Assembly (NCBI RefSeq): GCF_900101855.1
Contig: NZ_FMVC01000001.1
Location: 585,965-649,964 of the forward strand
Source of the DNA: Flavobacterium anhuiense
GTDB taxonomy: Bacteria; Bacteroidota; Bacteroidia; Flavobacteriales; Flavobacteriaceae
Direction of reading: 5' to 3'
DNA length: 64,000 bases
The position numbers and the translations under genes were made by a program. Of the stretch, positions 26,215 through 60,050 are shown piece after piece. Each line of letters opens with the position of its first letter. Position 1 is the stretch's first letter. The notes beneath the pieces were generated by a model. It was given only the letters and a program-made list of their open reading frames with translations. It searched no databases and had not been told where the DNA came from.

Positions 26215-26242
26215 AAAAAAAGCTCTGATTATTCAGAGCTTT
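26213..26242. terminator. Bidirectional terminator between convergent genes
   Basis: AGCTCTGA (26221-26228) and TCAGAGCT (26233-26240) form a perfect 8-bp stem with a 4-nt loop after nine A. The stop codon of the minus-strand gene (26229-26231) lies in the loop. Confidence 0.82.
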
Positions 26243-27513: not shown

Positions 27514-27580
27514 CCATCATCAAAATAACTACATTTATTTTGATAAATAAAATTAAATTAGCGCAACCAAAATCGATTTG

Positions 27581-29101
27581 ATGAATACAATAAATGAATA
27601 TCTAAGTTTAGCAGAATTTGAAGCCATAATCTTTGGAAAAAACAAAGTTGCCATAAGCGATGTGGTCTTAAATCGAGTAAACGAAAGTTTTAATTTCTTA
27701 AAAGAATTCTCAGGAAATAAAGTAATCTACGGAGTAAATACAGGATTTGGTCCAATGGCTCAATACAGAATTAAGGAGTCAGACCAAATTCAATTGCAAT
27801 ATAATTTAATCAGAAGCCATTCTTCTGGAACTGGAAAACCTTTAAACGCTGAGTGCGCAAAAGCAGCAATTTTGGCAAGGTTAAATACACTTTCTTTAGG
27901 GAACTCAGGCGTTCATTCTTCTGTAATTCATTTAATGGCAGAATTAATCAATAGAGATATTACGCCTTTAATTTTTGAACATGGTGGTGTTGGTGCCAGC
28001 GGAGATTTAGTGCAATTATCACACTTAGCTTTGGTTTTAATTGGCGAAGGCGAAGTTTTTTATAAAGGTGAAAGACGCGCAACAGCAGAGGTTTTCGAAA
28101 TTGAAGGTTTAAAACCCATTCAAGTAGAAATTAGAGAAGGTCTGGCGTTAATCAACGGAACTTCTGTAATGACAGGAATTGGAGTAGTAAATGTTCATTA
28201 TGCAAAAAAATTATTAGACTGGTCGTTAAAAGCTTCTTGTGCAATTAACGAATTAGTTCAAGCTTACGATGATCATTTCTCAGAAGAATTAAACCAAACC
28301 AAACGTCATAAAGGACAGCAGGAAGTTGCTGAAAGAATGAGACAAAATCTTTCTGACAGTACTTTGATCCGTAAAAGAGAAGACCATTTATATTCTGGCG
28401 AAAACACCGAAGAAATCTTCAAAGAAAAAGTTCAGGAATATTATTCATTAAGATGCGTTCCTCAAATTCTTGGGCCAGTTTTAGAAACTATTAATAATGT
28501 CGCTTCTATTTTGGAAGACGAATTTAACTCGGCAAACGATAATCCAATCATCGACGTGAAAAACAAACACGTTTACCACGGCGGAAATTTCCACGGAGAT
28601 TACATTTCGCTTGAAATGGATAAACTGAAAATCGTTATTACGAAATTAACGATGTTGGCAGAACGCCAATTGAATTATTTATTGAATTCTAAAATCAACG
28701 AAATTCTTCCTCCATTCGTAAACTTAGGAACATTAGGTTTTAATTTCGGAATGCAGGGTGTTCAGTTCGTTGCCACTTCAACCACTGCAGAATGCCAAAC
28801 ATTATCTAACCCAATGTATGTGCACAGTATTCCAAACAACAATGACAACCAAGACATTGTGAGTATGGGAACCAATGCGGCAGTAATTACATCAAAAGTT
28901 ATCGAAAATTCTTTTGAAGTTTTAGCAATCGAATTAATCACTATTGTTCAGGCAATTGATTATTTGAAACAAAAAGATCAAATCTCGTCTACGACTAAAA
29001 AATGGTACGACGATATCAGAAATATAATTCCAGAATTTAAAGAAGATCAAGTAATGTATCCTTTTGTTCAAAAAGTAAAAGATTATTTGATCAACAGTTA
29101 A
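27581..29101 (+). CDS. Tyrosine ammonia-lyase (flexirubin starter unit)
   Basis: Removes ammonia from L-tyrosine to give 4-coumarate, the aryl starter of flexirubin. 506 residues of the aromatic ammonia-lyase family. The A-S-G triad that forms the MIO group is at 139-141 (GGVGASGDLVQLSH), with YGVNTGFGPMA (50-60) and the FGMQGVQFVATSTTAEC region. The sequence is very close to the well-studied F. johnsoniae TAL, as I recall it. TTG at 27578 precedes the ATG; the ATG is the likely start. Histidine lyase is the alternative but unlikely here. Confidence 0.93.
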   Translation: MNTINEYLSLAEFEAIIFGKNKVAISDVVLNRVNESFNFLKEFSGNKVIYGVNTGFGPMAQYRIKESDQIQLQYNLIRSHSSGTGKPLNAECAKAAILARLNTLSLGNSGVHSSVIHLMAELINRDITPLIFEHGGVGASGDLVQLSHLALVLIGEGEVFYKGERRATAEVFEIEGLKPIQVEIREGLALINGTSVMTGIGVVNVHYAKKLLDWSLKASCAINELVQAYDDHFSEELNQTKRHKGQQEVAERMRQNLSDSTLIRKREDHLYSGENTEEIFKEKVQEYYSLRCVPQILGPVLETINNVASILEDEFNSANDNPIIDVKNKHVYHGGNFHGDYISLEMDKLKIVITKLTMLAERQLNYLLNSKINEILPPFVNLGTLGFNFGMQGVQFVATSTTAECQTLSNPMYVHSIPNNNDNQDIVSMGTNAAVITSKVIENSFEVLAIELITIVQAIDYLKQKDQISSTTKKWYDDIRNIIPEFKEDQVMYPFVQKVKDYLINS

Positions 29102-32960: not shown

Positions 32961-33845
32961 ATGAGTCAATGGGATGGTAAATCCAAAGGAACTGTTTTAG
33001 GTTATAAAATATTCGTTTTTTTAATTCAAAAAGCGGGTGTAAAAGCTGCTTATGTCTTACTTTACTTTGTTGCTTCTTATTATTTTTTATTTCTAAAAAA
33101 AAGCAACAGAGCCATTTTTTATTATTTTAAAGAAAGACTTCAGTATTCCTATTTCAAATCTAAAAAGATGGTTTTCAAAAGCTATTATACTTTTGGGCAA
33201 ACCATTATTGACAAAATTTCTATTTCGGCAGGAATGCGCAACAAATTCACGTACGAATTTGATGGAATAGAAACACTAAAAAAATTACTTGCCGAGAAAA
33301 AAGGCGGTGTTTTAATTAGCGCTCATGTTGGTAATTTTGAAATTGCAGAACATTTTTTTGGAGAAATCGACCTTGATTTCCAAATCAATCTCGTTACAAC
33401 AGATTTAGAACATTCTGCCATTAAAAATTATCTGGAAAGCGTTTCTAAAAAACCTACCGTAAAATTTATTATCATCAAAGAAGATCTTTCTCATATTTTT
33501 GAGATCAATGCTGCTTTGGCCAAAAACGAACTGATCTGCTTTACAGGTGACCGTTATTTTGAAGGAACAAAATCACTTTCCGAGAATCTTTTAGGCAAAG
33601 AGGCCAATTTCCCTGCAGGTCCATTTCTAATTGCTTCAAGATTAAAAGTTCCTGTAGTTTTTGTTTATGTAATGAAAGAACCAAATCTTCATTATCATTT
33701 GTACGCAAGAGAAGCCGAAGTAAAACACCGTGACGAAAAAGCGCTTTTGAAAGAATATGTAAAAAGCGTAGAGAGCATCCTTCATCAATACCCTTTACAA
33801 TGGTTCAATTATTTTGATTTTTGGAACGATATAAAGGAGTCTTAA
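32961..33845 (+). CDS. Acyltransferase of the LpxL/HtrB family
   Basis: 294 residues of the lysophospholipid/lipid A acyltransferase family, which moves acyl groups from ACP to an acceptor at the inner membrane. One membrane segment near 30-50 and an HxxxxE active site in SAHVGNFEIAE near residue 120. It follows the ACP with no gap. In the pigment context it may join the polyene acyl chain and the dialkylresorcinol, or act on a lipid. Lipid A acylation is the alternative. Confidence 0.85.
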   Translation: MSQWDGKSKGTVLGYKIFVFLIQKAGVKAAYVLLYFVASYYFLFLKKSNRAIFYYFKERLQYSYFKSKKMVFKSYYTFGQTIIDKISISAGMRNKFTYEFDGIETLKKLLAEKKGGVLISAHVGNFEIAEHFFGEIDLDFQINLVTTDLEHSAIKNYLESVSKKPTVKFIIIKEDLSHIFEINAALAKNELICFTGDRYFEGTKSLSENLLGKEANFPAGPFLIASRLKVPVVFVYVMKEPNLHYHLYAREAEVKHRDEKALLKEYVKSVESILHQYPLQWFNYFDFWNDIKES

Positions 33846-34132: not shown

Positions 34133-35035
34133 ATGAAAAATGTTCTCGTAATTTATTATTCTCAATCTGGACAATTGGAATCTATTGCAAGAAATATTGC
34201 AAAACCGTTTCTAAATTCAGAAGAAATAAATCTTACTTTTCACGAAATACAATTGGAGAAACCGTTTCCGTTTCCTTGGAACAAAGAATCATTTTTTGAT
34301 GCGTTTCCAGAATCGTTTTTACAGATTCCGACTGCATTAAAACCTGTTCCAGAAGAAATCTTAAACACAAAGTTTGACTTAATTTTATTTCATTATCAGG
34401 TTTGGTATTTATCGCCTTCAATTCCGATCAATTCATTTTTGAAAAGTGACGATGCCAAGAAAATTTTGAACAATACGCCAGTTATCACCATAAGCGGTTC
34501 AAGAAACATGTGGATAATGGCTCAGGAAAAAATCAAAGTTCTGCTAAGAAAAGCCAATGCCAATTTGGTTGGAAATGTAGCTTTGGTAGACCGCGTTGGA
34601 AATTTAATCAGCGTTATAACCATTGTAGAATGGATGTTTTCTGGAGTAAAGAAAAAATATTTAGGTATTTTTCCGCTTCCGGGAGTTTCAGAAAAAGACA
34701 TACAAGAATCGAGTCAGTTTGGAGAAATCATGCTTGATTCTTTGCAAAAAGATAATTTAACGCAATTACAGCCAAAATTGGTCGAGGCTGGCGCTGTAAA
34801 AATAAGTTCCTATTTAGTGACTGTTGACAAAACGGCCAATAAAATTTTTAATAAATGGTCAAACATCATTTATAAAAATCAAAAAAAGCGAAAACAGCTG
34901 CTTAAAGTATTTAATATTTATTTATTCCTTGCGATATGGTTAATTTCACCAATAGTGTATATATTGCACCTTATTACCTATCCGCTTAAGTTCAAAAAAA
35001 TAAAAAAGGAAACTCAATATTATCAGGGAGTTTAG
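34133..35035 (+). CDS. darA: DarA, dialkylresorcinol condensing enzyme
   Basis: Works with DarB to form the dialkylresorcinol half of flexirubin, where it aromatises the cyclised intermediate. 300 residues: an N-terminal flavodoxin-like fold with the flavin loop YYSQSGQLESIA (8-19), then FHYQVWYLSPSIPINSFL, and a hydrophobic C-terminal segment (about 262-285) suggesting membrane attachment. It lies 17 bases before darB, the constant partner of this gene in dialkylresorcinol clusters. Confidence 0.88.
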   Translation: MKNVLVIYYSQSGQLESIARNIAKPFLNSEEINLTFHEIQLEKPFPFPWNKESFFDAFPESFLQIPTALKPVPEEILNTKFDLILFHYQVWYLSPSIPINSFLKSDDAKKILNNTPVITISGSRNMWIMAQEKIKVLLRKANANLVGNVALVDRVGNLISVITIVEWMFSGVKKKYLGIFPLPGVSEKDIQESSQFGEIMLDSLQKDNLTQLQPKLVEAGAVKISSYLVTVDKTANKIFNKWSNIIYKNQKKRKQLLKVFNIYLFLAIWLISPIVYILHLITYPLKFKKIKKETQYYQGV

Positions 35036-35052
35036 AAGACGAAATTTAGATT

Positions 35053-36186
35053 ATGTTTGAAGTATATATTACAAAAGCTGCAAAGTATTTGCCAAACGAA
35101 GCCGTTTCAAATGACGAAATGGAAGCCTACTTAGGCCTTATCAATGATACTGCTTCAAAAGCAAGACGTATTATTTTGCGCAACAATAAAATTACAAGCC
35201 GATATTACGCTGTTGACAAAGAAGGAAAGAGCACTCATAGTAATGCCGAATTAACAAGAAATGCTATTTTACCGTTATTCGACGAAAATTTTACGCCTCA
35301 GGATTTAGAAGTACTTTCATGTGGGACCTCAACTCCCGACATTTTTCTGCCTTCGCATGCTGCGATGGTTCATGGTCTGCTAAAAAACAAATCGGTAGAA
35401 TTAAACTCTTCAACGGGAGTTTGCTGTGCTGGAATGAACTCTCTTAAATTTGGTTTTCTTTCTATTAGATCTGGAAATTCAAAAAATGCAATCTGCACAG
35501 GATCTGAAAAAGTTTCTACCTGGCTAAATGCTCAAAAATACAATCACGAGGCTGACAATTTAAAAAGCCTTGAAGAACAGCCAATCATTGCCTTCAAAAA
35601 AGATTTCCTTCGCTGGATGTTATCTGATGGTGCTGGAGCTTTTTTATTAGAAAATAAACCAAGAGGACCGATTTCGCTAAAAATCGAATGGATGGAAGCT
35701 TTTTCGTATGCGTACGAATTGGAAACGTGCATGTACGCTGGAGGTGATAAATTGGAAAATGGAGAAATTAAAGGCTGGAGCGATTATTCTCCAGAACAAT
35801 GGCTGAACGAATCTGTTTTCTCAATAAAACAAGACGTTAAATTATTAGACGAATTTATCCTGTCTAAAGGTGCAGAAAGCATGAAAGAGGCAATGGATAA
35901 AAACAATATTAAATCGGAAGATATCAATTACTTTATTCCCCACGTTTCTTCTAACTTTTTTGTGGAAGGACTGAAGAAAGGATTAAACGAAAAAGGTATC
36001 GGAATGAGCGATGACAAATGGTTCATGAATCTTTCTAGAGTTGGAAATGTTGGCTCTGCTTCTATTTACCTGGCTCTTGAAGAATTAATGAATTCAGGAA
36101 ATTTGAAAAAAGGAGATAAAATTTTATTATCTGTTCCAGAAAGCGGAAGATTCTCTTTTGCTTACGCATATTTAACGGTTTGCTAA
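35053..36186 (+). CDS. darB: DarB, KAS III-like ketosynthase
   Basis: Joins a beta-ketoacyl and an acyl thioester to build the alkylresorcinol ring carbon skeleton. 377 residues with a thiolase fold of the FabH type: active Cys125 in TGVCCAGMNS, His297 in FIPHVSSNF and Asn332 in SRVGNVGSAS complete the C-H-N triad. Its stop codon overlaps the ATG of the next hotdog gene by one base. Placement beside darA makes the identification firm. Confidence 0.9.
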   Translation: MFEVYITKAAKYLPNEAVSNDEMEAYLGLINDTASKARRIILRNNKITSRYYAVDKEGKSTHSNAELTRNAILPLFDENFTPQDLEVLSCGTSTPDIFLPSHAAMVHGLLKNKSVELNSSTGVCCAGMNSLKFGFLSIRSGNSKNAICTGSEKVSTWLNAQKYNHEADNLKSLEEQPIIAFKKDFLRWMLSDGAGAFLLENKPRGPISLKIEWMEAFSYAYELETCMYAGGDKLENGEIKGWSDYSPEQWLNESVFSIKQDVKLLDEFILSKGAESMKEAMDKNNIKSEDINYFIPHVSSNFFVEGLKKGLNEKGIGMSDDKWFMNLSRVGNVGSASIYLALEELMNSGNLKKGDKILLSVPESGRFSFAYAYLTVC

Positions 36187-47280: not shown

Positions 47281-47907
47281 ATGAAAACTAAAATAGCATT
47301 ACTCATTCTATTTATATCTAGCAATTTGTTCGCGCAAGAACAAAAAATGACCGATGCCGAAATCGCGTCTTTTAAGCAAGACGTGAATGTCGTGGCGAAA
47401 AAAATCAAAACCTTAACTACTGATTTTGTTCAGTACAAGCATTTAGACTTTTTATCGAAAGACATTGAAACTTCAGGAAAAATGGTTTTTAAAGAACCAG
47501 CTTTACTTCAATGGCAATATAAAAAACCGTACAACTACAGCATTACTTTCAAAAACGGGAAAATTTTAATTAATGACGAAGGAAAGAAAAGCGCTGTTGA
47601 TATTGGAAACAGTAAAATCTTCGCTCGAATCAATAAATTAATTGTGGGAAGCGTAAGCGGAAATATGTTTGATGACAAAGAATTTACGATTTCGTATTTT
47701 AAAGTGAAAGGTCAGAATCTGGCGAAATTCATTCCGAAAGATGCGACGCTGAAAAAATATATTAAACAAATTGAACTGACTTTTGATAAAGAAGAAGCAA
47801 CTGTTGTTCAGGTAAAACTGTTAGAATCATCTGAAGATTATACTAGAATTGTACTTAAAAATAAAGTGATCAATGCAAAAATCGACGATTCAGTTTTTAC
47901 TAATTAA
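47281..47907 (+). CDS. LolA-like outer-membrane lipoprotein carrier
   Basis: 208 residues with a signal peptide (cleavage after SSNLFAQ) and a LolA fold: TTDFVQYKHLDFLSKDIETSGKMVFKEPALLQWQYKKPYNYSITFKNGK is typical. It is periplasmic. A LolA copy inside aryl-polyene clusters is thought to carry the hydrophobic product to the outer membrane. The housekeeping lolA is presumably elsewhere. It overlaps the following lipoprotein gene by 35 bases. Confidence 0.87.
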   Translation: MKTKIALLILFISSNLFAQEQKMTDAEIASFKQDVNVVAKKIKTLTTDFVQYKHLDFLSKDIETSGKMVFKEPALLQWQYKKPYNYSITFKNGKILINDEGKKSAVDIGNSKIFARINKLIVGSVSGNMFDDKEFTISYFKVKGQNLAKFIPKDATLKKYIKQIELTFDKEEATVVQVKLLESSEDYTRIVLKNKVINAKIDDSVFTN

Positions 47908-48508
47908 TTGCTTTCTGGCAATTGTTTTAATTTCTTGCGGCTCAGTTACAAAAAATTATACGCCTAAAAAATTAGATAAAACATCTTATACAGTTCCGTA
48001 TTTCACAGATTCAAAAACCGATTATGTTTATAAAACCAATATCAGTGTTTACGGAAATGAATTGTCTGGAATTTTCATTGCCAAGAAAATAAACGACACG
48101 ACACACCGAATTGTTTTTACTACCGAATTCGGAAATAAATTGATGGATTTTGAAATTTCAGAAACCGATTTTAAAATCAATTCTATTGTTTCAGAATTAG
48201 ATAGAAAAATATTAATCAACACTTTAAAAGAAGATTTTAGACTGCTTTTAAAGAAAGAATATCCGATTCAGGAACAATTTGAAAACTCTTCAAATGACAT
48301 TTACAAATCGGCAGATGGAAAACGGGACAATTATATTTTTATCTCCAAAAAAGATCAGAAATTAGAAAAGATCGTTCATGCTTCTAAAACAAAAGAAAAA
48401 TTTACACTACTTTTCAATTCAGAAAACAATATTTTTGCTGAAAAGATCCAAATCATCCATCAGAATATTAAACTGAAAATTGAGCTGAATTATTTCAAAT
48501 CAGAATAG
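47873..48508 (+). CDS. Lipoprotein of unknown function in the pigment cluster
   Basis: 211 residues with a lipoprotein signal: MQKSTIQFLLINCFLAIVLISCGS, Cys at position 22. The rest is beta-rich with no motif I recognise. The 35-base overlap with lolA and its envelope location suggest that it works with LolA as an acceptor (LolB-like role) in moving the pigment. That function is inference from position only. Confidence 0.75.
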   Translation: MQKSTIQFLLINCFLAIVLISCGSVTKNYTPKKLDKTSYTVPYFTDSKTDYVYKTNISVYGNELSGIFIAKKINDTTHRIVFTTEFGNKLMDFEISETDFKINSIVSELDRKILINTLKEDFRLLLKKEYPIQEQFENSSNDIYKSADGKRDNYIFISKKDQKLEKIVHASKTKEKFTLLFNSENNIFAEKIQIIHQNIKLKIELNYFKSE

Positions 48509-48545: not shown

Positions 48546-49133
48546 ATGAGAAATTTTGTTGTACTTGCATTTGTTTTATTAATCGGAATCCAGGCAGAAG
48601 CGCAGGTAAAAGTTAGCCCTGGACTTAGAGGCGGTTTGAATATATCAACACTAAGCAATATTGATGATAACAGTTCTAAAACTGATTTTTATGTTGGTGG
48701 ATTGGTAAATATTAAATTCAATAGATTTTTTTCGGTTCAGCCAGAATTAAATTATTCAAGACAAGGTGATGAAGGAAGATACTTTGAAAATGGTCGTTAT
48801 TATTCTGAAAAGTATGAGTTGAATTATATAACACTTGGAGCGGTTGCAAAATTTAACTTTAACGGTGGCGGTTTTCATCTGTTAGCAGGGCCATCTTTAG
48901 ATTTAAAAGTTAGTGATAACTATATAAACACTAAACCTGAAGATTACGATCTTTCATTTGTTGGAGGTGTTGGTTATACTTTGCCAAATGGCTTAACTTT
49001 TGAAGCTCGATTCAAACAAGGGTTAATTGATATTTATGGTTACGATGGAATCGACGATGGTTATTATTATGATCAAGTAATTTTAAATCAGGTTTTCCAG
49101 CTTGGTATTAGTTATACGTTTAAAACAAAATAA
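48546..49133 (+). CDS. Outer-membrane beta-barrel protein 1
   Basis: 195 residues: signal peptide ending IQAEAQ, then an eight-stranded porin-family barrel. Markers are SPGLRGGLNISTLS at the start, FFSVQPELNYSRQGDEG and the aromatic C-terminal strand FQLGISYTFKTK. It is a tandem paralogue of the next gene, 2 bases downstream. Position beside LolA suggests a role in the outer-membrane seat of flexirubin. Confidence 0.85.
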   Translation: MRNFVVLAFVLLIGIQAEAQVKVSPGLRGGLNISTLSNIDDNSSKTDFYVGGLVNIKFNRFFSVQPELNYSRQGDEGRYFENGRYYSEKYELNYITLGAVAKFNFNGGGFHLLAGPSLDLKVSDNYINTKPEDYDLSFVGGVGYTLPNGLTFEARFKQGLIDIYGYDGIDDGYYYDQVILNQVFQLGISYTFKTK

Positions 49134-49135
49134 AA

Positions 49136-49747
49136 ATGAACAAAAGAATATTCTTCTTTTTTGCTGTTTTTTTTACGGTTTTAAATATTCAGGCTCAAGT
49201 ATCGGCGAAACCTGGTTTAAGAGCAGGATTTAGTTTTTCGACCATTTCTGAAATGCATGCCGATTATAAAACTGATTTTTATGCTGGTGGTTTTACTGAT
49301 ATTAAGATTACAAAAATTTACTCGCTACAGCCAGAAATTAATTATAGCAGACAAGGTTCTAATAATGTTGCGCGAAATTATTATGACGAAGCTAGTCAAA
49401 CCAATAAGGTAGAATATTTGGATTTGGATATCAATTATTTGTCACTTTCTGTAATCAATAAATTTACTCTGCCACAAGGAATTCAGTTTCAAGCGGGACC
49501 AACTTTAGATATTTTATTAAATGATAATCTTGCGGTTAGAAAAGCACAAAATGATCTTGGTTTGGTTTTAGGTGTTGCTTATGCTCTGCCTTCTGGATTA
49601 ACATTTGAAGCTCGATTTAAAAAAGGTTTGCTTGATGTTTTAAGCAGCGATTATTATCAAAATGACTCCAATAATTATTATTTATTTGGAGATTATAACA
49701 CAAATATTAATTTTCAGTTAGGAGTTTCCTACTCATTTGGAAAATAA
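49136..49747 (+). CDS. Outer-membrane beta-barrel protein 2
   Basis: 203 residues, paralogue of the preceding protein: signal peptide ending NIQAQ, KPGLRAGFSFSTIS, KTDFYAGGFTDIK, YSLQPEINYSRQGS, LTFEARFKKGLLD and the C-terminal strand FQLGVSYSFGK. The pair arose by tandem duplication. The next gene, a hotdog subunit, starts 5 bases later, so these barrels are within the pigment operon. Confidence 0.85.
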   Translation: MNKRIFFFFAVFFTVLNIQAQVSAKPGLRAGFSFSTISEMHADYKTDFYAGGFTDIKITKIYSLQPEINYSRQGSNNVARNYYDEASQTNKVEYLDLDINYLSLSVINKFTLPQGIQFQAGPTLDILLNDNLAVRKAQNDLGLVLGVAYALPSGLTFEARFKKGLLDVLSSDYYQNDSNNYYLFGDYNTNINFQLGVSYSFGK

Positions 49748-50628: not shown

Positions 50629-51804
50629 ATGAAATCACAGCAAGAATTACTTAGTTCGATTCACTTTTGCGTTATTGTGCCTACTTACAATAACCAAAAA
50701 ACACTGAAAAAAGTACTGGATTCTATTTTAGATTTCACCACAAATATTATCATTGTCAATGACGGCTCGACTGATTCTACTAGCGAAATTTTAAAATCGT
50801 ATTCGCAAGTGACTCAAATTCATCATCCTAAAAATTTAGGAAAAGGACGAGCGCTAAGAAATGGATTTAGAAAAGCGTTGGAACTGGGTTTTGAATATGC
50901 CATTACAATCGATTCTGACGGACAGCATTTTGCCGCTGATATTCCTGTTTTCTTGAAAGCAATACAAGACGAGCCAAACGCTCTCTTGATTGGAAGCCGA
51001 AATATGACGCAGGAAAATGTTCCGAAGAAAAGCAGTTTCGGAAACAAGTTTTCTAACTTTTGGTTCAAGTTTGAAACTGGAATCAAGCTAGACGATACAC
51101 AGTCCGGATTTAGATTATATCCGCTTCGATTGCTTCCAAAACGTTTTTTCACTAATAAATTTGAATTTGAAATCGAAGTTATTGTGCGTGCAGCATGGAA
51201 AGGAATTGTGGTAAAAAACATTCCGATTCAGGTTTTGTATGATCCTGCTGAAAGAGTTTCGCATTTTCGTCCGTTTCAAGATTTTACCCGAATTAGCATT
51301 TTAAATACGGTTTTGGTGACCAATGCCTTGCTGTATATAAAACCAAGAGACTTTTTTAGAAGAGCAAAAAAAAAAGGTTTTAAAAAATTCTTTCTAGAAG
51401 ATATTTTAGAAAGCAACGATTCTAATTTTAAAAAATCAGCTGCAATTGCGCTTGGTATTTTTATCGGACTTTCTCCTTTTTGGGGATTTCAGACCGTATT
51501 GCTTTTTACGTTTGCAGCTTTGTTCAGACTTAACAAAGTCATTGCTTATCTCACTTCAAACGTAAGTTTTCCGCCTTTTATACCGTTTATTATTTATGCT
51601 TCGCTTCAAGTTGGGAGTGTTTTTGTCAGCAGTGAAACGCCACTGGTTTTGGACAGTTCAATAACTCTTGACGATATTCAAAAAAATGCTACGCAATATA
51701 TCGTAGGAAGTCTTATTTTAGCAACCGTTTCAGCACTATCAGTTGGCTTTATAAGTTATTTGCTTTTAACGGCTTTTAGTTCTAAAAACAAAACAAATAT
51801 TTAA
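50629..51804 (+). CDS. Family 2 glycosyltransferase fused to DUF2062
   Basis: 391 residues: an N-terminal GT2 domain (about 10-245), with NDGSTDSTSEI (44-54) and the DxD-like IDSDGQH (94-100), and a C-terminal DUF2062 membrane domain (about 265-385) beginning KKSAAIALGIFIGLSPFWGFQT. It resembles dolichol-phosphate-mannose-synthase-like enzymes. This fusion recurs in aryl-polyene clusters; a glycosylated or lipid-linked product is possible but not proven. Confidence 0.87.
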   Translation: MKSQQELLSSIHFCVIVPTYNNQKTLKKVLDSILDFTTNIIIVNDGSTDSTSEILKSYSQVTQIHHPKNLGKGRALRNGFRKALELGFEYAITIDSDGQHFAADIPVFLKAIQDEPNALLIGSRNMTQENVPKKSSFGNKFSNFWFKFETGIKLDDTQSGFRLYPLRLLPKRFFTNKFEFEIEVIVRAAWKGIVVKNIPIQVLYDPAERVSHFRPFQDFTRISILNTVLVTNALLYIKPRDFFRRAKKKGFKKFFLEDILESNDSNFKKSAAIALGIFIGLSPFWGFQTVLLFTFAALFRLNKVIAYLTSNVSFPPFIPFIIYASLQVGSVFVSSETPLVLDSSITLDDIQKNATQYIVGSLILATVSALSVGFISYLLLTAFSSKNKTNI

Positions 51805-51893: not shown

Positions 51894-54800
51894 ATGCATC
51901 AATATTTCTACGCCATTCATTTGTTTGTTAATCGAAGAAAATCTCTTTCGGTGCTATTGGCTATTTTGATGCTTTTGGTTTTTGGATTTTTCGCTTCAAG
52001 ATTAAAGTTTGAAGAAGATATCACCAAACTTATTCCAACAAACGACAAAACCGATGTTACCGCCAAAGTTTTAAAACAATTAAACTTTGCCGATAAAACC
52101 ACCGTAATTTTTAGCTTAGATAAAAATGGTTCTGCAGATGATTTGAAGGAAATGGCAACCATTTTTTCAGACAGCGTTGCTAAGTCCTGCAAACCTTACA
52201 TAACGGGAATTCAGGGAAAAATTGACGAAGAAAACATTCAAGAAACTATTGATTTTGTTTACAATAATTTGCCGCTTTTTCTAGATGACAAAGATTATGA
52301 TGCTATCGAAAAGAAACTCCAAAAAGACAGTATTGCAGCAACCGTTCAAGGAAATTACAAATCGATTATTTCTCCGTCTGGATTTATTACCAAAGATTTT
52401 ATTCTGCAAGATCCGTTTGGGATTTCTTTTATCGCTTTAAAAAAATTACAGCAATTAAATATTGGAGACGATTTTACGCTTGAAAATGGTTTTGTAATGA
52501 CAAAGGATAAAAAGAAATTATTGCTTTTTATCACTTCTAATATTCCATCTAGCGAGACAGAAAAGAATACCATTTTTGCTGAAAAACTAAAATCAATTCA
52601 GGAAAATCTAAATACGCAGTTTAAAGGAAAAACTTCTGTCAGTTATTTTGGTTCTGCTTTAATTGCCGTTGCCAATGCTAAACAAATTAAGGGAGATATT
52701 ATTCTCACGACTTCAATTGCGATGTTTACCTTAATGCTAATCCTAATTTTATTTTATCGAAAACTGTTAATTCCGCTGATTATATTTTTGCCGACAGTTT
52801 TTGGAGGTTTGTTTGCGGTTGCGTTCCTATACTTCGTTAGAGAACAAATCTCAGCAATTTCATTAGGAATCGGTTCAATTTTACTCGGAATTACGATTGA
52901 TTATTCCATTCATATTCTCACACATTACAAGCATAACAGCGATGTAAAAACTTTGTACAAAGACATTACAATGCCTGTCATTATGAGTAGTTCTACTACT
53001 GCTGTTGCGTTTTTGTGTCTGCTTTTTGTAAAATCGGATGCGCTAAATGATCTCGGAATTTTTGCCGCCGTTATCGTTATTGCTTCTGCTGTTTTCTCGC
53101 TTTTAATTGTTCCGCATTTATACAAACCAAAAGAAAATCCTGCAGATCATAAAAAGAATGTGATCGATAAAATGGCTCATTTTTCTTTTCACAATAATAA
53201 AATCTTAATCGCACTTTGTGTTATCATTACCATAATTTGCTGTTTCACTTATAATGATGTTGGTTTTAATAACGATTTGTCACAGCTGAATTTTATTCCG
53301 AAAGAAATTAAAGCGGCCGAAAAACAGTTGGAAGAAAGTACGAGTTTAACTTCCAAAACGATTTATGTTGCTTCTTACGGAAAAACTATGGAAGAAGCTT
53401 TGCAGCATAACAGCAAACTTTTTGACGATTTATCCAAAGAAAAAAATCAGAAGAGAATTTTAAATTTCAGTTCTGCTGGCGGAATTGTATTTGCTCAAAA
53501 AGAACAAATCGAAAAAATTGAAAAGTGGAATTCGTTTTGGACTCCGCAAAAAAAACAATTCATACAATCAGAATTAATTGCTGAAGGATCAAAACTTGGC
53601 TTTAAACCCACAACTTACAATTTATTTTTTGATCATTTAGATTTTGACTTCAAACCTGTTTCGGCAGATGAATTTTTAAAAATTAAAGCACTTCAATTAC
53701 AAGAATTTATAACCGAAAAAAATGGCTTTTATACCATTTCAACTTTAGTAAAAGTATCACCAGAACAACGAGATGCTTTTGTAAAATTGGCCTCTGCAAA
53801 AGAAAACGTAATTGCAATTGACCGTCAGCAGATGAACGAAACATTTTTCAGCAATCTAAAAACCGATTTTAATTCGTTGGTAAATTATTCTTTTGTAGCG
53901 GTAATTTTAATTCTATTTTTCTTTTTTCGAAGAATCGAATTGGTAATTATCAGCTGTATTCCAATTGCTTTGACCGGAATTGTAACAGCTGGAATTATGG
54001 GCATTTTTGGCATTCAGATGAACATTTTCAGTATGATTGTCTGCACCTTAATTTTTGGTCATGGAGTCGATTTTAGTATTTTCATGACCAGTGCATTGCA
54101 AAAAGAATATACTAATGGCGTTAACGAAATTGCCATTTATAGAACCTCAATTATTCTGGCGGTAATCACAACCATTTTAGGAATTGGTGCGATGATTTTT
54201 GCCAAACATCCCGCGCTTACTTCAATTTCACTGGTTTCATTAATCGGAGTTTTTGCTGCGCTGATCATTACTTTTATTTTCTATCCGATTTTATTCAAAC
54301 TGTTTTTATCCAATCGCCCGAAAAAAGGAAATCCGCCATTTCAATTGCGAACTTTTGTTCATGGCGTAATTTCCTTTGCGTATTATGGTTTGGGCGGAAT
54401 CGTAATGTCGATTTTCAGCTTTACGATTATGCCGATTTTGCCTTTCAGCAAAAAATCAAAAATGAAAACTTTCCGATATGTGATTTCAAAATTCATGAAA
54501 TCGGTTTTGTATTCAAATCCGTTTATTCGCAAAAAAGTCGTTAATAACTTCAATGAAACTTTCGAAAAACCAGCCGTAATTATTGCCAATCATTCTTCTT
54601 TTTTGGACATTTTAGCCATCGGAATGTTAAGTCCAAAAATCATTTTCTTGGTAAGCGACTGGGTTTACAACTCTCCTATTTTTGGCGGTGTTGTGAGAAA
54701 AGCAGGTTTTTATCCTGTTTCTGAAGGTCTTGAAGGCGGAGTCGAACATTTGCGTAAAAAAGTAAACGAAGGATATTCTTTGATGGTTTTTCCAGAAGGA

Positions 54801-55568
54801 ACGCGATCAGAAAATAATGTGGTAAAACGATTCCATAAAGGAGCATTCTTCCTTGCCGAAGAATTTAAAATAGATATTATTCCTATTGTTATTCATGGCG
54901 CATCAGAATTAATTCCGAAAGGCGATTTTGTCATTCATCACGGAAAGTTGACGGTTACCATTTTAGAAAGAATCACGCCTGATAATTTTTCATTTGGAGC
55001 CAATTATGTTGAAAGAACCAAGCAAATAAGCACTTTCTTTAAAGCTGAATACCGCAAAATAAGACAAGAACTTGAAGGTCCTGATTATTTCAAAAAAATG
55101 CTTATTAACAGCTACGATTATAAAGAAATCGAGGTTGGAAATAGCGTGAAAAAGGATTTAAAACAAAATCTAGAAAGGTATTACAGCTTAAACAAATACA
55201 TTCAGCCAAAAGCAAAAATCCTACATTTAGCAAACGATTTTGGGCAATTGGATGTTTTACTGGCTTTACAGGAACCACAGCGAAAAATATTTTCTTTTAT
55301 AAATGATGAAGAAAAATTGCTGGTTGCCAAAACGAATTATATTGTTACAAAGAGAAAAATATTCTATCTCGACAATTTAGAATCGGCACTTGAAAATCAT
55401 TACGATATTCTTTTAGTTTCAGACGAAGATTATCAGGATCAAATCGGAAAAGTAATTTCGAAAGCTGCTTCTATAATTTTAGTGAATTGTTCCCATTTAA
55501 GAAATCAGTTTGAGGATTTTGAAATTGTTTCTGAAGAAAATGCTTTATTAGTTTTAAAGAAAAAATAA
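51894..55568 (+). CDS. MMPL transporter fused to acyltransferase and a C-terminal Rossmann-like domain
   Basis: 1224 residues in three parts. Residues 1-830: an RND/MMPL exporter with an N-terminal membrane segment, two large periplasmic domains and two groups of five to six membrane segments. About 860-1060: a lysophospholipid acyltransferase with NHSSFLDILAIG (HxxxxD, His about 900) and FPEGTRS (about 965-971). About 1090-1224: a degenerate Rossmann/methyltransferase-like fold (PKAKILHLANDFGQLDVLLAL). It may acylate and export the pigment in one machine. It overlaps the next start by one base. Confidence 0.87.
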   Translation: MHQYFYAIHLFVNRRKSLSVLLAILMLLVFGFFASRLKFEEDITKLIPTNDKTDVTAKVLKQLNFADKTTVIFSLDKNGSADDLKEMATIFSDSVAKSCKPYITGIQGKIDEENIQETIDFVYNNLPLFLDDKDYDAIEKKLQKDSIAATVQGNYKSIISPSGFITKDFILQDPFGISFIALKKLQQLNIGDDFTLENGFVMTKDKKKLLLFITSNIPSSETEKNTIFAEKLKSIQENLNTQFKGKTSVSYFGSALIAVANAKQIKGDIILTTSIAMFTLMLILILFYRKLLIPLIIFLPTVFGGLFAVAFLYFVREQISAISLGIGSILLGITIDYSIHILTHYKHNSDVKTLYKDITMPVIMSSSTTAVAFLCLLFVKSDALNDLGIFAAVIVIASAVFSLLIVPHLYKPKENPADHKKNVIDKMAHFSFHNNKILIALCVIITIICCFTYNDVGFNNDLSQLNFIPKEIKAAEKQLEESTSLTSKTIYVASYGKTMEEALQHNSKLFDDLSKEKNQKRILNFSSAGGIVFAQKEQIEKIEKWNSFWTPQKKQFIQSELIAEGSKLGFKPTTYNLFFDHLDFDFKPVSADEFLKIKALQLQEFITEKNGFYTISTLVKVSPEQRDAFVKLASAKENVIAIDRQQMNETFFSNLKTDFNSLVNYSFVAVILILFFFFRRIELVIISCIPIALTGIVTAGIMGIFGIQMNIFSMIVCTLIFGHGVDFSIFMTSALQKEYTNGVNEIAIYRTSIILAVITTILGIGAMIFAKHPALTSISLVSLIGVFAALIITFIFYPILFKLFLSNRPKKGNPPFQLRTFVHGVISFAYYGLGGIVMSIFSFTIMPILPFSKKSKMKTFRYVISKFMKSVLYSNPFIRKKVVNNFNETFEKPAVIIANHSSFLDILAIGMLSPKIIFLVSDWVYNSPIFGGVVRKAGFYPVSEGLEGGVEHLRKKVNEGYSLMVFPEGTRSENNVVKRFHKGAFFLAEEFKIDIIPIVIHGASELIPKGDFVIHHGKLTVTILERITPDNFSFGANYVERTKQISTFFKAEYRKIRQELEGPDYFKKMLINSYDYKEIEVGNSVKKDLKQNLERYYSLNKYIQPKAKILHLANDFGQLDVLLALQEPQRKIFSFINDEEKLLVAKTNYIVTKRKIFYLDNLESALENHYDILLVSDEDYQDQIGKVISKAASIILVNCSHLRNQFEDFEIVSEENALLVLKKK

Positions 55569-57085
55569 TGAAAAAACAATACGATGTAGTTATAATTGGC
55601 AGCGGTTTAGGCGGATTGGTTTCTGCCGTTATTCTGGCAAAAGAAGGCTACAGCGTTTGTGTACTCGAAAAAAACAATCAATATGGAGGAAATCTGCAGA
55701 CTTTCGTAAGAGATAAAACCATTTTTGATACGGGAATTCATTACATCGGAGGTTTAGGCGAAGGCCAAAATCTCCATCAATATTTCAAATATATTGGAAT
55801 AATGGATCATTTGAATCTGAAAAAAATGGACGAAAATGGTTTTGATATGATTTCTTTTGATGACGATAAAACCGAATATCCGCATGCGCAAGGTTTCGAA
55901 AATTTCATTCAACAGCTAACCAATTTATTTCCTGAAGAAAAAGAAAATCTAGAACGTTATTGCCAGAAAATAAAAGCGGTTTGCAAAACATTTCCGCTTT
56001 ACAATCTGGAATCTCAAGGAAAATATGACGATGAAATTTTAATGCTTAACGCAAAAGAAACCATCGATTCTTTTACTGAAAATGAAAAGCTAAAAGCAAT
56101 TTTGGCAGGTTCTAATTTTCTCTATGCGGGAATTCCTGATAAATCGCCTTTTTATGTTCATGCTCTTATTGTCAATTCCTACATAGAAAGTTCATGGCGC
56201 TGTATAAATGGCGGAAGCCAAATTACCAAACAATTGCTGAAACAACTTAAAAAATTTGGCGGAGAATTTTTTAAACATAAAGAAGTCACAAAAATTGAAG
56301 TTGAAGACCAAAAGGTAAATTCGGTACAAATGAAAGACGGAACCAAGGTTTCGGGAACGTTTTTTATTTCGAATATCGAACCGAAAACGACTTTAAAAAT
56401 GGCCGGCCAGGAAAATTTCAGAAAACCATTTTTCAATAGAATTCAAAATCTCGAAAACGTACTTTCTGCTTTTAGTTTATACATTGTTTTTAAACCTAAA
56501 ACTTTCAAATATATCAATCATAATTATTACCATTTTAAAAGTGCAAATGATGTTTGGGCCGCACACGAATACGACGAAAATTCATGGCCCAAAACCTTTA
56601 TGGCATGTATGAATCCGTCGAAAAAAGATGAGGAATGGGCAGACGGAATGACATTTTTGACCTATATGAAATATGATGATGTCAAAGCTTGGGAAAACAC
56701 TTTCAACACTACTTTCGAAGAAAATGATCGCGGAGAAAGTTATGACGAATTCAAAGCCAAAAAAGCCGAAAAGCTTTTAAAAGAAATCGAAAAAAAATTC
56801 CCAGGCATAAAAGATTGCATCAAATCGGTTCATACTTCTACGCCACTTTCTTACCGCGATTACATTGGTGGAGACGGTGGAAATATGTACGGATATGTTA
56901 AAGATTCAAATAATCCAATGAAAACTTTGATTCCAAACAAAACTAAAATAGAAAATCTTTATCTTACAGGCCAAAGTATTAATATGCACGGTGTCTTGGG
57001 TGTTACAGTTGGAGCGGTCATAACTTGCTCTGAAATTGTAGGAAAAGAATATCTGCTGGAAAAAATAAAAAAAGCATCTGAATAA
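55568..57085 (+). CDS. Phytoene-desaturase-like FAD oxidoreductase
   Basis: 505 residues of the CrtI/amine-oxidase fold. The FAD loop GSGLGG (11-16) lies in YDVVIIGSGLGGLVSAVILAKEGYSVCVLEKNN, with a C-terminal FAD motif around NLYLTGQSINMHGVLGVTVGA. It could desaturate or oxidise the polyene or ring. It overlaps the fusion gene by one base and precedes the C45 gene by 5 bases. Confidence 0.87.
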   Translation: MKKQYDVVIIGSGLGGLVSAVILAKEGYSVCVLEKNNQYGGNLQTFVRDKTIFDTGIHYIGGLGEGQNLHQYFKYIGIMDHLNLKKMDENGFDMISFDDDKTEYPHAQGFENFIQQLTNLFPEEKENLERYCQKIKAVCKTFPLYNLESQGKYDDEILMLNAKETIDSFTENEKLKAILAGSNFLYAGIPDKSPFYVHALIVNSYIESSWRCINGGSQITKQLLKQLKKFGGEFFKHKEVTKIEVEDQKVNSVQMKDGTKVSGTFFISNIEPKTTLKMAGQENFRKPFFNRIQNLENVLSAFSLYIVFKPKTFKYINHNYYHFKSANDVWAAHEYDENSWPKTFMACMNPSKKDEEWADGMTFLTYMKYDDVKAWENTFNTTFEENDRGESYDEFKAKKAEKLLKEIEKKFPGIKDCIKSVHTSTPLSYRDYIGGDGGNMYGYVKDSNNPMKTLIPNKTKIENLYLTGQSINMHGVLGVTVGAVITCSEIVGKEYLLEKIKKASE

Positions 57086-57090
57086 TTATT

Positions 57091-58755
57091 ATGAAAAACC
57101 GCATCCTATATATTTTCTTCGTCGGTTTTTTTAGTTTGCTGACTTCCTGCGGTACTTCAAAATCAAAAAAACATACGCCTGATATTACCGCTTTCAACAA
57201 TACAAAACCTGTTGTAAACAAATTATCTGACAGTATTTTTCTTTCTGGAAAAAATTCGCTTTTAAAAAATAAACAAGGTCTTTGGGAATTATATGTAGAA
57301 GGTGATCCTCTCGAAATTGGACTTTCTACTGGTGCTTTGACTGATTCGCTTTTGCACAAACAGCAACGCATTTTTTTCTCTAAAATTACCGATTTGATAC
57401 CTTCAAAATTTCAGCAAAAACTGCTTCGCCAGTTTCTGAAATGGTACAATCGAAAATTGTATTTGAATGTTCCCGACGAATATCAAACGGAGATTTATGG
57501 CGTTTCGCAATATACTTCGAATGATTTTGATAATATCGCACCTCAATATCAGCGCAGTTTGTATCTGCATGCAGCGCACGATATTGGGCACGCTTTACAG
57601 GATTTAGCTTTGGTTGGCTGTTCTTCTTTTGCTGCTTGGAATGAAAAATCGGAAGATGGAAATTTAATTCTTGCTCGAAATTTTGATTTTTATGTCAATG
57701 ACGCTTTCGCGGAAAATAAAATCGTGGCCTTTATAAAACCAGAAGAAGGTTATCCGTTTATGATGGTCACTTGGCCCGGAATGATTGGCGCCGTTTCTGG
57801 AATGAATTATGAAGGGTTGACCGTAACGATAAACGCTTCGAAATCTAAAATTCCGCTTAGCGCGAAAACGCCAATTTCCATCTTAACTCGCGAAATTTTA
57901 CAGCATGCTAAAAATTTAGACGAGGCTGTTGCAATCGCAAAAAAAAGAAAAGTATTTGTCTCTGAATCGATTATGGTCGGAAGTGCCAATGACAACAAAG
58001 CGATTTTAATTGAAGTTTCTCCAAATAAAATGGACGTTTATGATGTTCCAAACAGCGATCAATTAATTTGTTCCAATCATTTTCAAGGCGAAGCTTTTAA
58101 AGAAGATAAAAGAAATCTGGAACAAATTGCCAACAGCCATTCTAAATACCGTTACGAAAGAATGCAGGAATTGCTATCTGAAAATCCCAAAGTAAATCCT
58201 GAAATTGCTTCGGAAATTCTTCGAAACAAAGAAGGCTTAAAGGACATTTCTTTAGGATATGGAAATGAAAAAGCCTTGAACCAACTGCTGGCGCATCACG
58301 GAATTATATTTAAACCAAAAGAAAAGTTGGTTTGGGTTTCTGCAAATCCCTATCAATTGGGCGAGTTTGTCTGTTATGATTTAAATGAGATTTTTGGAGA
58401 AAACAGAAATACAGTAAAATCTTTTCAAAAGGAAAATTTAAACATTGCCAAAGATCCTTTCTTAGAAACAACTGCCTTTCAGAATTTTAAAGAATTCAAA
58501 ATAGAAGATCATAAAATGGACTCGATTTTAAAAAAGAAAGAAACTGTTTCTCCAGAATTTCTTGAAGATTATCAAGCACTAAACCCTAATTATTGGGTTG
58601 TATATTATAAGGTAGGATTGTACTTTTACCAAAAAAAGGAATTTCTTCAGGCAAAGCTTAATTTTGAAAAAGCTTTAAGCCACGAAATCACTACAGTTCC
58701 GCAAAAAGAAGAGATTGAAAAATATTTAAAAAAAGTCAAAAGAAAAGTACAATGA
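57091..58755 (+). CDS. C45 family acyltransferase/peptidase-like lipoprotein
   Basis: 554 residues with a lipoprotein signal (FSLLTSCGT, Cys20). The C45/acyl-transferase domain (about 60-420) has the likely N-terminal nucleophile Cys177 in LVGCSSFAAWNEKSEDGNLILARNFDFY, followed by TWPGMIGAVSGMNYEGLTVTINA; in this family autocleavage before the Cys activates the enzyme. A TPR-like tail is at about 510-550. It could make or break an ester or amide in the envelope. It overlaps the ligase gene by 4 bases. Confidence 0.82.
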   Translation: MKNRILYIFFVGFFSLLTSCGTSKSKKHTPDITAFNNTKPVVNKLSDSIFLSGKNSLLKNKQGLWELYVEGDPLEIGLSTGALTDSLLHKQQRIFFSKITDLIPSKFQQKLLRQFLKWYNRKLYLNVPDEYQTEIYGVSQYTSNDFDNIAPQYQRSLYLHAAHDIGHALQDLALVGCSSFAAWNEKSEDGNLILARNFDFYVNDAFAENKIVAFIKPEEGYPFMMVTWPGMIGAVSGMNYEGLTVTINASKSKIPLSAKTPISILTREILQHAKNLDEAVAIAKKRKVFVSESIMVGSANDNKAILIEVSPNKMDVYDVPNSDQLICSNHFQGEAFKEDKRNLEQIANSHSKYRYERMQELLSENPKVNPEIASEILRNKEGLKDISLGYGNEKALNQLLAHHGIIFKPKEKLVWVSANPYQLGEFVCYDLNEIFGENRNTVKSFQKENLNIAKDPFLETTAFQNFKEFKIEDHKMDSILKKKETVSPEFLEDYQALNPNYWVVYYKVGLYFYQKKEFLQAKLNFEKALSHEITTVPQKEEIEKYLKKVKRKVQ

Positions 58756-60050
58756 TTCCAGCAATAGAAAAAGATTCTTTAGAAGAGATTAAAATTTTTC
58801 AAGAAAAAAAATTAGCCGAACTTTTAGCTTATATCGGCGAAAATTCTCCTTTTTATAAAAGACTTTTTGCAGGACAGAATATTGATATTTCGAAAGTAAA
58901 AACGCTGGAAGATTTACAGCATTTACCTGTTACCACCAAAGAAGATTTACAGCAATATAATGATGATTTTTTGTGTGTTCCGCAGCATAAAATTATCGAT
59001 TACGCCTCAACATCGGGAACTTTAGGAGATCCTGTTACTTTTGGCCTAACCGATTCTGATTTGGATCGTTTGGCTTATAATGAAGCGATTTCTTTTGCCT
59101 GTGCCGGAATTGCAGAAGGCGATGTGGTGCAATTAATGACTACAATCGACAGGAAATTTATGGCTGGCTTGGCTTATTTTCTAGGTTTAAGAAAACTGAA
59201 AGTTGGCGTAATTCGTGTTGGAGCCGGAATTCCAGAAATGCAATGGGATTCGATTTTAAAATACAATCCGAGTTATCTGATTACAGTTCCCTCTTTTCTT
59301 TTGAAATTAATTGAATACGCCGAAATGCACGGAATCGATTATAACAATTCGAGCATAAAAGGTGCCATCTGCATTGGAGAATCTTTGAGAGAACAGGATT
59401 TTTCAATGAATATTTTATCCAAAAAAATTACAGATAAATGGAATATTAAGTTGTTTTCGACTTATGCCTCTACTGAAATGAGTACTGCTTTTACAGAATG
59501 CGAACATGGAAAAGGCGGACATCATCATCCAGAATTGATCATTGTAGAAGTTTTAGACGAAAATAATCAGCCTGTAAAAAATGGAGAAACTGGAGAACTT
59601 ACTTTTACTACTTTAGGAATTGAGGCGATGCCTTTACTGCGTTTCAAAACAGGCGATATGGTTCAGTTTCATGACGAGCCTTGCGCTTGTGGCAGAAATA
59701 CTTTACGCGTTGGACCAGTTGTTGGTCGCAAAAAACAAATGATTAAATATAAAGGAACAACATTGTATCCGCCAGCGATGAACGATGTTTTGAGCAGTTT
59801 TGACAATATCGAAAATCATTTGATTGAAATCTCTACAAACGATTTAGGTACCGATGAAATCCTAATTAAAATTGCCGTTAAAAATCAAACCCCAGAATTT
59901 TTACAGGAAATAAAAGATCATTTTAGAGCCAAATTAAGAGTTACGCCAAAAATAGAATTTGCTTCAAAAGAAGTTTTAAATCCGTTAGTTTTTAATCCAA
60001 TGAGCAGAAAACCAATTCGTTTTTTTGATTACAGAAAAACTTCTGTTTAG
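58752..60050 (+). CDS. Phenylacetate-CoA-ligase-like acyl-activating enzyme
   Basis: 432 residues of the AMP-forming PaaK type. The phosphate loop is STSGTLGDP (86-94), then LFSTYASTEMSTAFTECEHGKGGHHHPE and FKTGD near 300; the CACGR motif resembles metal-binding sites in PaaK relatives. It probably activates 4-coumarate from tyrosine ammonia-lyase, or the finished polyene acid, for transfer to ACP or CoA. Last gene of the cluster, followed by a terminator. Confidence 0.87.
   Translation: MIPAIEKDSLEEIKIFQEKKLAELLAYIGENSPFYKRLFAGQNIDISKVKTLEDLQHLPVTTKEDLQQYNDDFLCVPQHKIIDYASTSGTLGDPVTFGLTDSDLDRLAYNEAISFACAGIAEGDVVQLMTTIDRKFMAGLAYFLGLRKLKVGVIRVGAGIPEMQWDSILKYNPSYLITVPSFLLKLIEYAEMHGIDYNNSSIKGAICIGESLREQDFSMNILSKKITDKWNIKLFSTYASTEMSTAFTECEHGKGGHHHPELIIVEVLDENNQPVKNGETGELTFTTLGIEAMPLLRFKTGDMVQFHDEPCACGRNTLRVGPVVGRKKQMIKYKGTTLYPPAMNDVLSSFDNIENHLIEISTNDLGTDEILIKIAVKNQTPEFLQEIKDHFRAKLRVTPKIEFASKEVLNPLVFNPMSRKPIRFFDYRKTSV

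Follow-up and report, generated by a model that had tools for sequence, protein, structure and literature searches.

What does a methyltransferase-like fold do at the end of an exporter that also carries an acyltransferase? This question is raised by a gene of Flavobacterium anhuiense within the 64,000-nucleotide window analyzed here (contig NZ_FMVC01000001.1 of assembly GCF_900101855.1, positions 585,965 to 649,964). At positions 51,894 to 55,568 of this window, on the forward strand, a single unbroken open reading frame with an ATG start encodes 1,224 residues which, according to Pfam and alignment, make up a fusion of an MMPL exporter, an acyltransferase and a pseudo-methyltransferase. An earlier note, made from the sequence alone, had described an exporter, an HxxxxD acyltransferase and a degenerate methyltransferase-like fold in one chain, and this composition is borne out by Pfam matches, by the catalytic pair H900-D905, by a structure model and by an alignment with orthologues whose methyltransferase is intact. 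With moderate confidence, we propose as the best explanation as a whole that this protein acts in the inner membrane as the exporter of the flexirubin cluster, and that in it counterparts of ApeM and ApeD from the aryl polyene system of E. coli are joined in one chain to a pseudo-methyltransferase that would have been repurposed to take part in acylation and export.

The three-domain build is not due to chance, as judged from an alignment of the window protein with 80 relatives. These represent the top 80 of 581 confirmed matches and are hence close by selection; apart from a small number of loosely named metagenome bins, they belong to Flavobacterium, Chryseobacterium and further Flavobacteriales, and three come from Sphingobacterium. 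Of these 81 short forms, 78 are 1,214 to 1,236 residues long and share the same architecture; the exceptions are a protein that reaches the end of its contig (L129; 1,074 residues), one of which only the C-terminal part lies in one frame (L119; 858 residues) and one with seven unread residues (L123; 1,198 residues). The C-terminus is readable in 80 short forms, the window protein included. One relative (L093) stems from a record titled as a Bifidobacterium breve metagenome-assembled genome, yet it has a Flavobacterium-like flexirubin cluster and is very likely a mislabelled bin. In the host genome, a full-length match to the fusion occurs once and three further partial matches with 24–29% identity are located elsewhere. 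For comparison, 24 orthologues with an intact methyltransferase were taken from outside the order of the window.

The C-terminal domain (residues 1050–1224; 55,041–55,565) was modelled with AlphaFold using 74 sequences, which led to a model with a predicted local distance difference test score (pLDDT) of 95.4, a predicted template modelling score of 0.90 and seven strands in the order of class I methyltransferases. Structure prediction had been recommended in the earlier note for residues 1090 onwards; the methyltransferase-like fold is confirmed, and the domain starts near residue 1050 instead. A Foldseek search with the model returned 703 PDB matches at E ≤ 0.001, and nearly all of the 50 matches shown are named methyltransferases, a few being titled uncharacterised (3gnl, 3lec, 1ne2, 1ufk). 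The best structural realignment was obtained with TrmR (Z 15.7, root-mean-square deviation 4.1, 162 residues aligned). Pfam gave no match in the last 175 residues of the window protein, and when five of the 24 intact relatives were submitted, all five passed the cut-offs of Methyltransf_25/31/11.

Intact and short forms differ at the site where S-adenosylmethionine (SAM) would be bound. All 24 intact forms possess D1111, G1113, G1115 and G1117 (D-x-G-x-G-x-G) as well as the ribose-binding D1136, and the window protein has H1111, A1113, D1115 and I1136 at these positions, so that its domain does not carry motif I (D/E-x-G-x-G-x-G with an acid ending strand 2). Instead, the alignment reveals a rewritten SAM loop HLANDFGQLD (residues 1111–1120; 55,224–55,253) with the signature H-x-x-x-D-x-G-Q-x-D, and among the 80 readable short forms H1111 is found in 77, D1115 in 71, G1117 in all 80, Q1118 in 72 and D1120 in 71. 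None of these 80 has an acid at 1111 or 1136 or a glycine at 1115; the first glycine (1113) is kept in 14, and the pair of glycines 1113 and 1115 occurs in none. The absence of a SAM-binding glycine motif, which had been noticed before in the window protein, therefore extends to its relatives. Judged by these alignments, the domain is descended from an intact methyltransferase and is now a pseudo-methyltransferase.

Where did the change occur? Of 247 genomes drawn from the class, 45 matched the fusion at E ≤ 1e-20. Twenty-five loci were fetched from this draw outside the order of the window; one was cut by its contig (L030) and the other 24 end in a complete methyltransferase and have longer open frames (1,281–1,316 codons). 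Three more longer frames with a complete methyltransferase (L189–L191) were found later. The exporter and acyltransferase part served to build a tree, rooted on the unfused exporter of genome G107, in which 35 short forms (the window protein, 30 of the 80 relatives and four others) were included along with the 24 intact ones. In this tree the short forms, from Flavobacterium, Chryseobacterium and their kin, constitute one clade (support 1.0) nested among the intact forms; the path below this clade is weakly supported (0.2 and 0.0). Counted from position 1106, the domain comprises 119 residues in the window protein and 113–131 among the 35 short forms on which the tree is based, as compared to 171–180 in the 24 intact forms; the short-form core has lost about 55 residues, and the RHxGTxxTExxST region of the intact enzymes is among the deleted parts. 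Outside the short clade, genome G170 (L165; 1,160 codons) has a separately shortened methyltransferase of 56 residues from position 1106 with the loop DNCGQGE. The gene order around intact forms was studied in regions of about 20 kb at 20 loci, that of G170 included, and is the same as in the window: acyl carrier protein (ACP), ketosynthase (KS), chain-length factor, deacetylase, LolA, LolB, dehydratase (DH), family 2 glycosyltransferase (GT2), fusion, FAD enzyme, C45-family protein and FlxY. The match in order is fullest in L150, L154, L159 and L160, and several other intact fusions stand apart from the cluster. The Sphingobacterium fusions (L124, L130, L142) nest within the Flavobacteriales clade with a much similar gene order, and horizontal transfer of the cluster is a likely reason.

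Has the shortened domain decayed or has it been put to another use? Conservation was scored with 51 short forms less than 70% alike. Across the entire short domain, conservation is highest in columns G1117 and H1111, and among segments of 11 residues the SAM-loop motif scores 2.97, compared to a mean of 1.71 for the core. Only two segments outscore it, starting one and two residues further on, and the best-scoring core segments all overlap the rewritten loop. By this measure, the old SAM loop has become a new conserved signature and has not simply drifted, which favours binding of something else over plain decay. The suggestion that the last domain may bind a substrate or another protein is thereby strengthened as far as binding is concerned. 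Rates of nonsynonymous substitution per domain were divided by the synonymous rate of the gene (dN/dS; window protein and L066–L097, 139–140 pairs with a gene dS between 0.15 and 1.2), giving medians of 0.223 (methyltransferase core), 0.087 (acyltransferase) and 0.058 (exporter). The core rate is about four times that of the exporter, yet far below 1, and therefore the domain is still kept under purifying selection, looser than before.

One measurement weighs against reuse: in short forms the protein distance of the core is 1.35–3.2 times that of the exporter, whereas the ratio is 0.88–0.95 in intact forms, and such faster evolution would also fit a partial relaxation towards a structural cap. 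An unneeded methyltransferase that merely decays and persists as a ligand-free cap would in addition account for the missing 55 residues with the RHxGTxxTExxST region and for the truncated version that G170 carries on its own. However, plain decay agrees poorly with a dN/dS of about 0.22, with the near-constant length of 78 of the 81 proteins, with a new motif that ranks among the most conserved columns precisely at the old SAM loop and with a domain model of pLDDT 95, and we consider it unlikely. Much less probable still, and in our opinion scarcely credible, is that the domain continues to methylate by binding SAM in an unusual way; the retained class I fold and the invariant G1117 would be in line with this, but each of the 80 readable short forms lacks the acids at 1111 and 1136 and G1115, only the 14 mentioned keep G1113, and the window domain has no Pfam methyltransferase match. 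Probably, then, the domain has been repurposed and not merely decayed. The former methyltransferase, no longer methylating, would persist in folded form and bind, through its rewritten loop, a ligand or partner, which might be the acceptor, the acyl-ACP or a neighbouring enzyme, and it would probably position or gate the acyltransferase-exporter. A more far-reaching and rather speculative version is that the SAM pocket was rebuilt across this branch of the Bacteroidota as a site for sensing or holding a flexirubin precursor, acyl carrier or partner enzyme and for gating the acyltransferase-exporter, so that a pseudoenzyme would control, like a loading valve, the passage from pigment synthesis to export.

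The exporter part is of the resistance-nodulation-division (RND)/MMPL type and covers residues 1–810 (51,894–54,323). Pfam recognizes MMPL in two stretches (9.7e-16, 58.1 bits as compared to a cut-off of 20.5), and a hydropathy scan counted 12 hydrophobic segments and two large loops (about 39–268 and 457–655), which are presumably periplasmic. In RND pumps, acidic residues in transmembrane segments (TM) 4 and 10 serve the proton relay, and such acids are present in the fusion as D336 in TM4 (52,899–52,901) and D726 in TM10 (54,069–54,071). D336 is conserved in 80 of 81 short forms and in 16 of the 24 intact relatives, D726 in all 81 and all 24. A profile search of the PDB identified HpnN (6wu0, 5khn; 3.6e-27) as the closest solved relative of the exporter, which did not reach the NCBIfam HpnN equivalog (107.5 bits as compared to a cut-off of 751.85).

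The PlsC-type acyltransferase part occupies residues 815–1049 (54,336–55,040), including an N-terminal two-helix membrane motif, as indicated by Pfam and the structure model. It matches Pfam Acyltransferase (PF01553) with 1.1e-21 and 77.5 bits (cut-off 23), and alignment places its HxxxxD motif at H900-D905 (54,591–54,608) and its FPEGTR motif at residues 966–971 (54,789–54,806). H900 is found in 81/81 short forms and in 23 of the 24 intact relatives, the remaining one (L009) being unreadable there; D905 is found in 81/81 and 19/24, and the other five (L020–L024, five genomes) have glutamate, that is HxxxxE. In 25 loci within L101–L145, FPEG of motif III is replaced by FPEA (22 loci, mostly Chryseobacterium, also L121, L129, L132 and L139) or FPES (L103, L105, L116), and a changed acceptor is a possible meaning of these variants. 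The model resembles PlsC (5kym; Foldseek 4.3e-13), with which it was aligned (VIA) over 240 residues with Z 23.3 and a root-mean-square deviation of 3.1, model residues 1–249 and the two-helix motif included. By motifs and fold the domain thus appears to be an intact lipid-type acyltransferase, for which acyl transfer itself is predicted. A net positive charge flanks a hydrophobic helix near 825–851 (+3 over 806–818, +9 over 849–880), which fits an in-plane anchor with the enzyme on the cytoplasmic side. Since 12 TM segments are followed by the two PlsC-like helices flanked by positive charge, both enzyme domains are most likely cytoplasmic, as the earlier note had assumed for the enzyme.

The flexirubin cluster spans about 27.6 to 60.0 kb of the window. 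FlxA (tyrosine ammonia-lyase; 27,578–29,101), LolA2 (47,281–47,907), LolB2 (47,873–48,508) and the acyl-CoA ligase FlxY (58,752–60,050) all pass NCBIfam cut-offs near the fusion, which is therefore a member of the cluster; like the other genes below, they lie on the forward strand unless stated otherwise. In the draw of 247 genomes, 37 of the 40 with FlxA over the cut-off also match the fusion at E ≤ 1e-20. A GT2 gene (50,629–51,804) ends 89 bases upstream of the fusion, and the last base of the fusion stop codon (55,568) is the start of the next gene, which encodes an FAD oxidoreductase (55,568–57,085) resembling CrtD and carotenoid isomerase below their cut-offs. It is followed by a C45-family autoproteolytic acyltransferase/hydrolase (57,091–58,755), a candidate ester synthase or processing enzyme, which occurs near the fusion in 55 of the 80 relatives (neighbourhoods up to ±10 kb). 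An LpxL/HtrB-like acyltransferase (32,961–33,845), another rival ester synthase, lies further upstream, as does the dialkylresorcinol pair DarA (34,133–35,035) and DarB (35,053–36,186), the latter two named from order and neighbours according to the dar list of PMC3949708, no family model being used.

Other features were observed in passing. A Trp-halogenase-like FAD enzyme (26,229–27,479, reverse strand) adjoins FlxA. Two outer-membrane beta-barrel genes (48,546–49,133 and 49,136–49,747; TDE1717-like below the cut-off) lie between LolB2 and the dehydratase, and one or both are present in many Flavobacterium relatives. Genome G342 (L193, L194), of the same family as the window, has a lone exporter, an ApeB-type methyltransferase, a relative of this halogenase-like enzyme and no DarA match, and by sequence inspection a gene resembling JmjC/cupin takes the usual place of the FAD enzyme. 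Of the genomes used as controls, one each exceeds the cut-off of the FlxY and of the FlxA model; Bacteroides ihuae is among the controls positive for both and the only one positive in a stricter FlxA search; it may have a flexirubin-like cluster, or the models may be broader than their names.

How could the three parts work together? The acyltransferase would transfer an acyl group, most probably the aryl-polyenoyl chain carried by its ACP, to a hydroxyl acceptor at the inner leaflet, which could be the dialkylresorcinol or a lipid anchor. The attached exporter would take up the product, powered by the proton gradient via D726 and D336, and hand it to LolA2 and LolB2 for the outer membrane. 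Making, holding and exporting the pigment may thus be joined in one chain, and a coupling of synthesis to export, as suggested in the earlier note, is plausible; the interpretation given in that note is thus supported in part.

That the fused acyltransferase makes the polyene-resorcinol ester is a tentative assignment. DarA and DarB directly follow the fusion in 21 of the 80 loci, all from Chryseobacterium or Epilithonimonas, which favours this role, and among the genomes looked at an exporter without fused acyltransferase is found only in G342 and G107, both DarA-negative. Alternatively, the domain might, like ApeD, acylate a glycerol or sugar lipid anchor or carrier, the ester being made by the C45-family protein or the LpxL-like acyltransferase; we hold this for conceivable, somewhat short of probable. 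The homology to ApeD and the C45 gene in 55 of 80 neighbourhoods speak for it, late intermediates without proper attachment to the final lipid accumulate in the apeD and apeJ mutants of E. coli (PMC8253772), and Schoner et al. (2014; PMC3992019) put forward the 'ligase-like' FlxW for the ester and count the acyltransferase among the export genes. The exporters without fused acyltransferase, seen only in DarA-negative G342 and G107, and the dialkylresorcinol genes behind the fusion in 21 loci argue in the other direction. So does G342, which retains C45 and the LpxL-like gene in the absence of a DarA match; neither gene is therefore specific for dialkylresorcinols.

Several points weigh against a proton-driven exporter with a coupled ester-forming acyltransferase. 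In TM4, asparagine or serine replaces the aspartate D336 in 8 of the 24 intact relatives. Three near-complete genomes without DarA match (G073, G170, G226) retain the fused acyltransferase, which again suits anchor acylation, and G151 and G223 (78% complete) likewise match the fusion and lack a match to DarA; conversely, near-complete G114, G054 and G603, and likewise G067, G196 and G209 (60–83% complete), possess DarA and no fusion match at E ≤ 1e-20. The cluster holds the two other acyltransferase-like genes, and acyl donor and acceptor are inferred. Finally, in the literature searched, subscription papers not covered, we found no experiment on this protein or on a coupling of synthesis to export and no account of an MMPL-acyltransferase-methyltransferase fusion, and none of the matches listed for flexirubin transposon mutants mentions this pigment.

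Which methylation was lost with the third domain? The flexirubin of Chitinophaga pinensis carries a methionine-derived methyl group on its polyene ring (PMC3992019). ApeB-type genes (E ≤ 1e-40) occur in 30 of 38 long-form genomes (22 of 27 in which motif I was read as intact and 8 of 11 assigned by reading frame length or match position) as compared to 3 of 23 altered-form genomes (22 of the short clade and G170). They sometimes lie beside FlxA, for example in G162 and G146, and are present in five short-form loci and in G342; a search of the window's genome gave no match. As ApeB accompanies most long forms, the fused enzyme was a second methyltransferase, and ApeB is the better candidate for ring methylation. 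Replacement of the lost fused enzyme by an ApeB-type enzyme was rejected, since ApeB is commoner with long forms. The presence of dialkylresorcinol does not explain the loss either, as 36 of 38 long-form genomes match DarA, and takeover of the ring position by a halogenase is unsupported, since halogenase-like genes are also found beside intact fusions (L150, L154, L163, L164).

Among known systems, the aryl polyene cluster of E. coli is the most similar, as it likewise has LolA/LolB-like, GT2, KS, ACP and DH genes. In strain CFT073 the RND exporter ApeM is a homologue of the exporter (21% identity, 6e-19), and the lysophospholipid acyltransferase ApeD of E. coli is one of the acyltransferase part (27%, 3e-13). 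However, ApeM and ApeD are encoded by separate genes in E. coli, whereas in Flavobacterium their counterparts are fused and joined to a methyltransferase fold. The intact fused protein L010 showed no significant BLASTP match to ApeB, and the domain of the window protein was not compared singly. In the same pathway of C. pinensis, flxP-flxU comprise a 'predicted exporter' and a phospholipid/glycerol acyltransferase with a proposed role in pigment export, and the description given there names neither a fusion nor a third domain (PMC3992019). PlsC of Thermotoga maritima (5kym) shares fold, two-helix membrane motif and sequence motifs with the acyltransferase part, but is a stand-alone enzyme with lysophosphatidate as acceptor. 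The hopanoid transporter HpnN, although nearest among solved structures, has a family cut-off that the exporter is far from reaching, and it is not known as an enzyme fusion. A pseudo-methyltransferase that keeps its fold without SAM chemistry within a multi-domain lipid enzyme is present in animal fatty acid synthase; this protein is unrelated and has no exporter, whereas the Flavobacterium domain has a new conserved motif at the SAM loop. The attachment of aryl polyenes and flexirubins to their partner, their passage through the inner membrane and their delivery to the outer membrane were ascribed to 'yet unknown mechanisms' in 2014 (PMC3992019). With acyltransferase and exporter in one chain, coupling becomes testable by point changes in one gene of a bacterium that is tractable in the laboratory, the altered loop giving a precise prediction (H1111, D1115, Q1118, D1120). 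In the third domain an enzyme can be seen to have turned into a pseudoenzyme, its intact and altered orthologues lying in corresponding gene neighbourhoods. In summary, the fusion is probably a variant of the known aryl polyene exporter, and its probably repurposed pseudoenzyme is the most interesting part.

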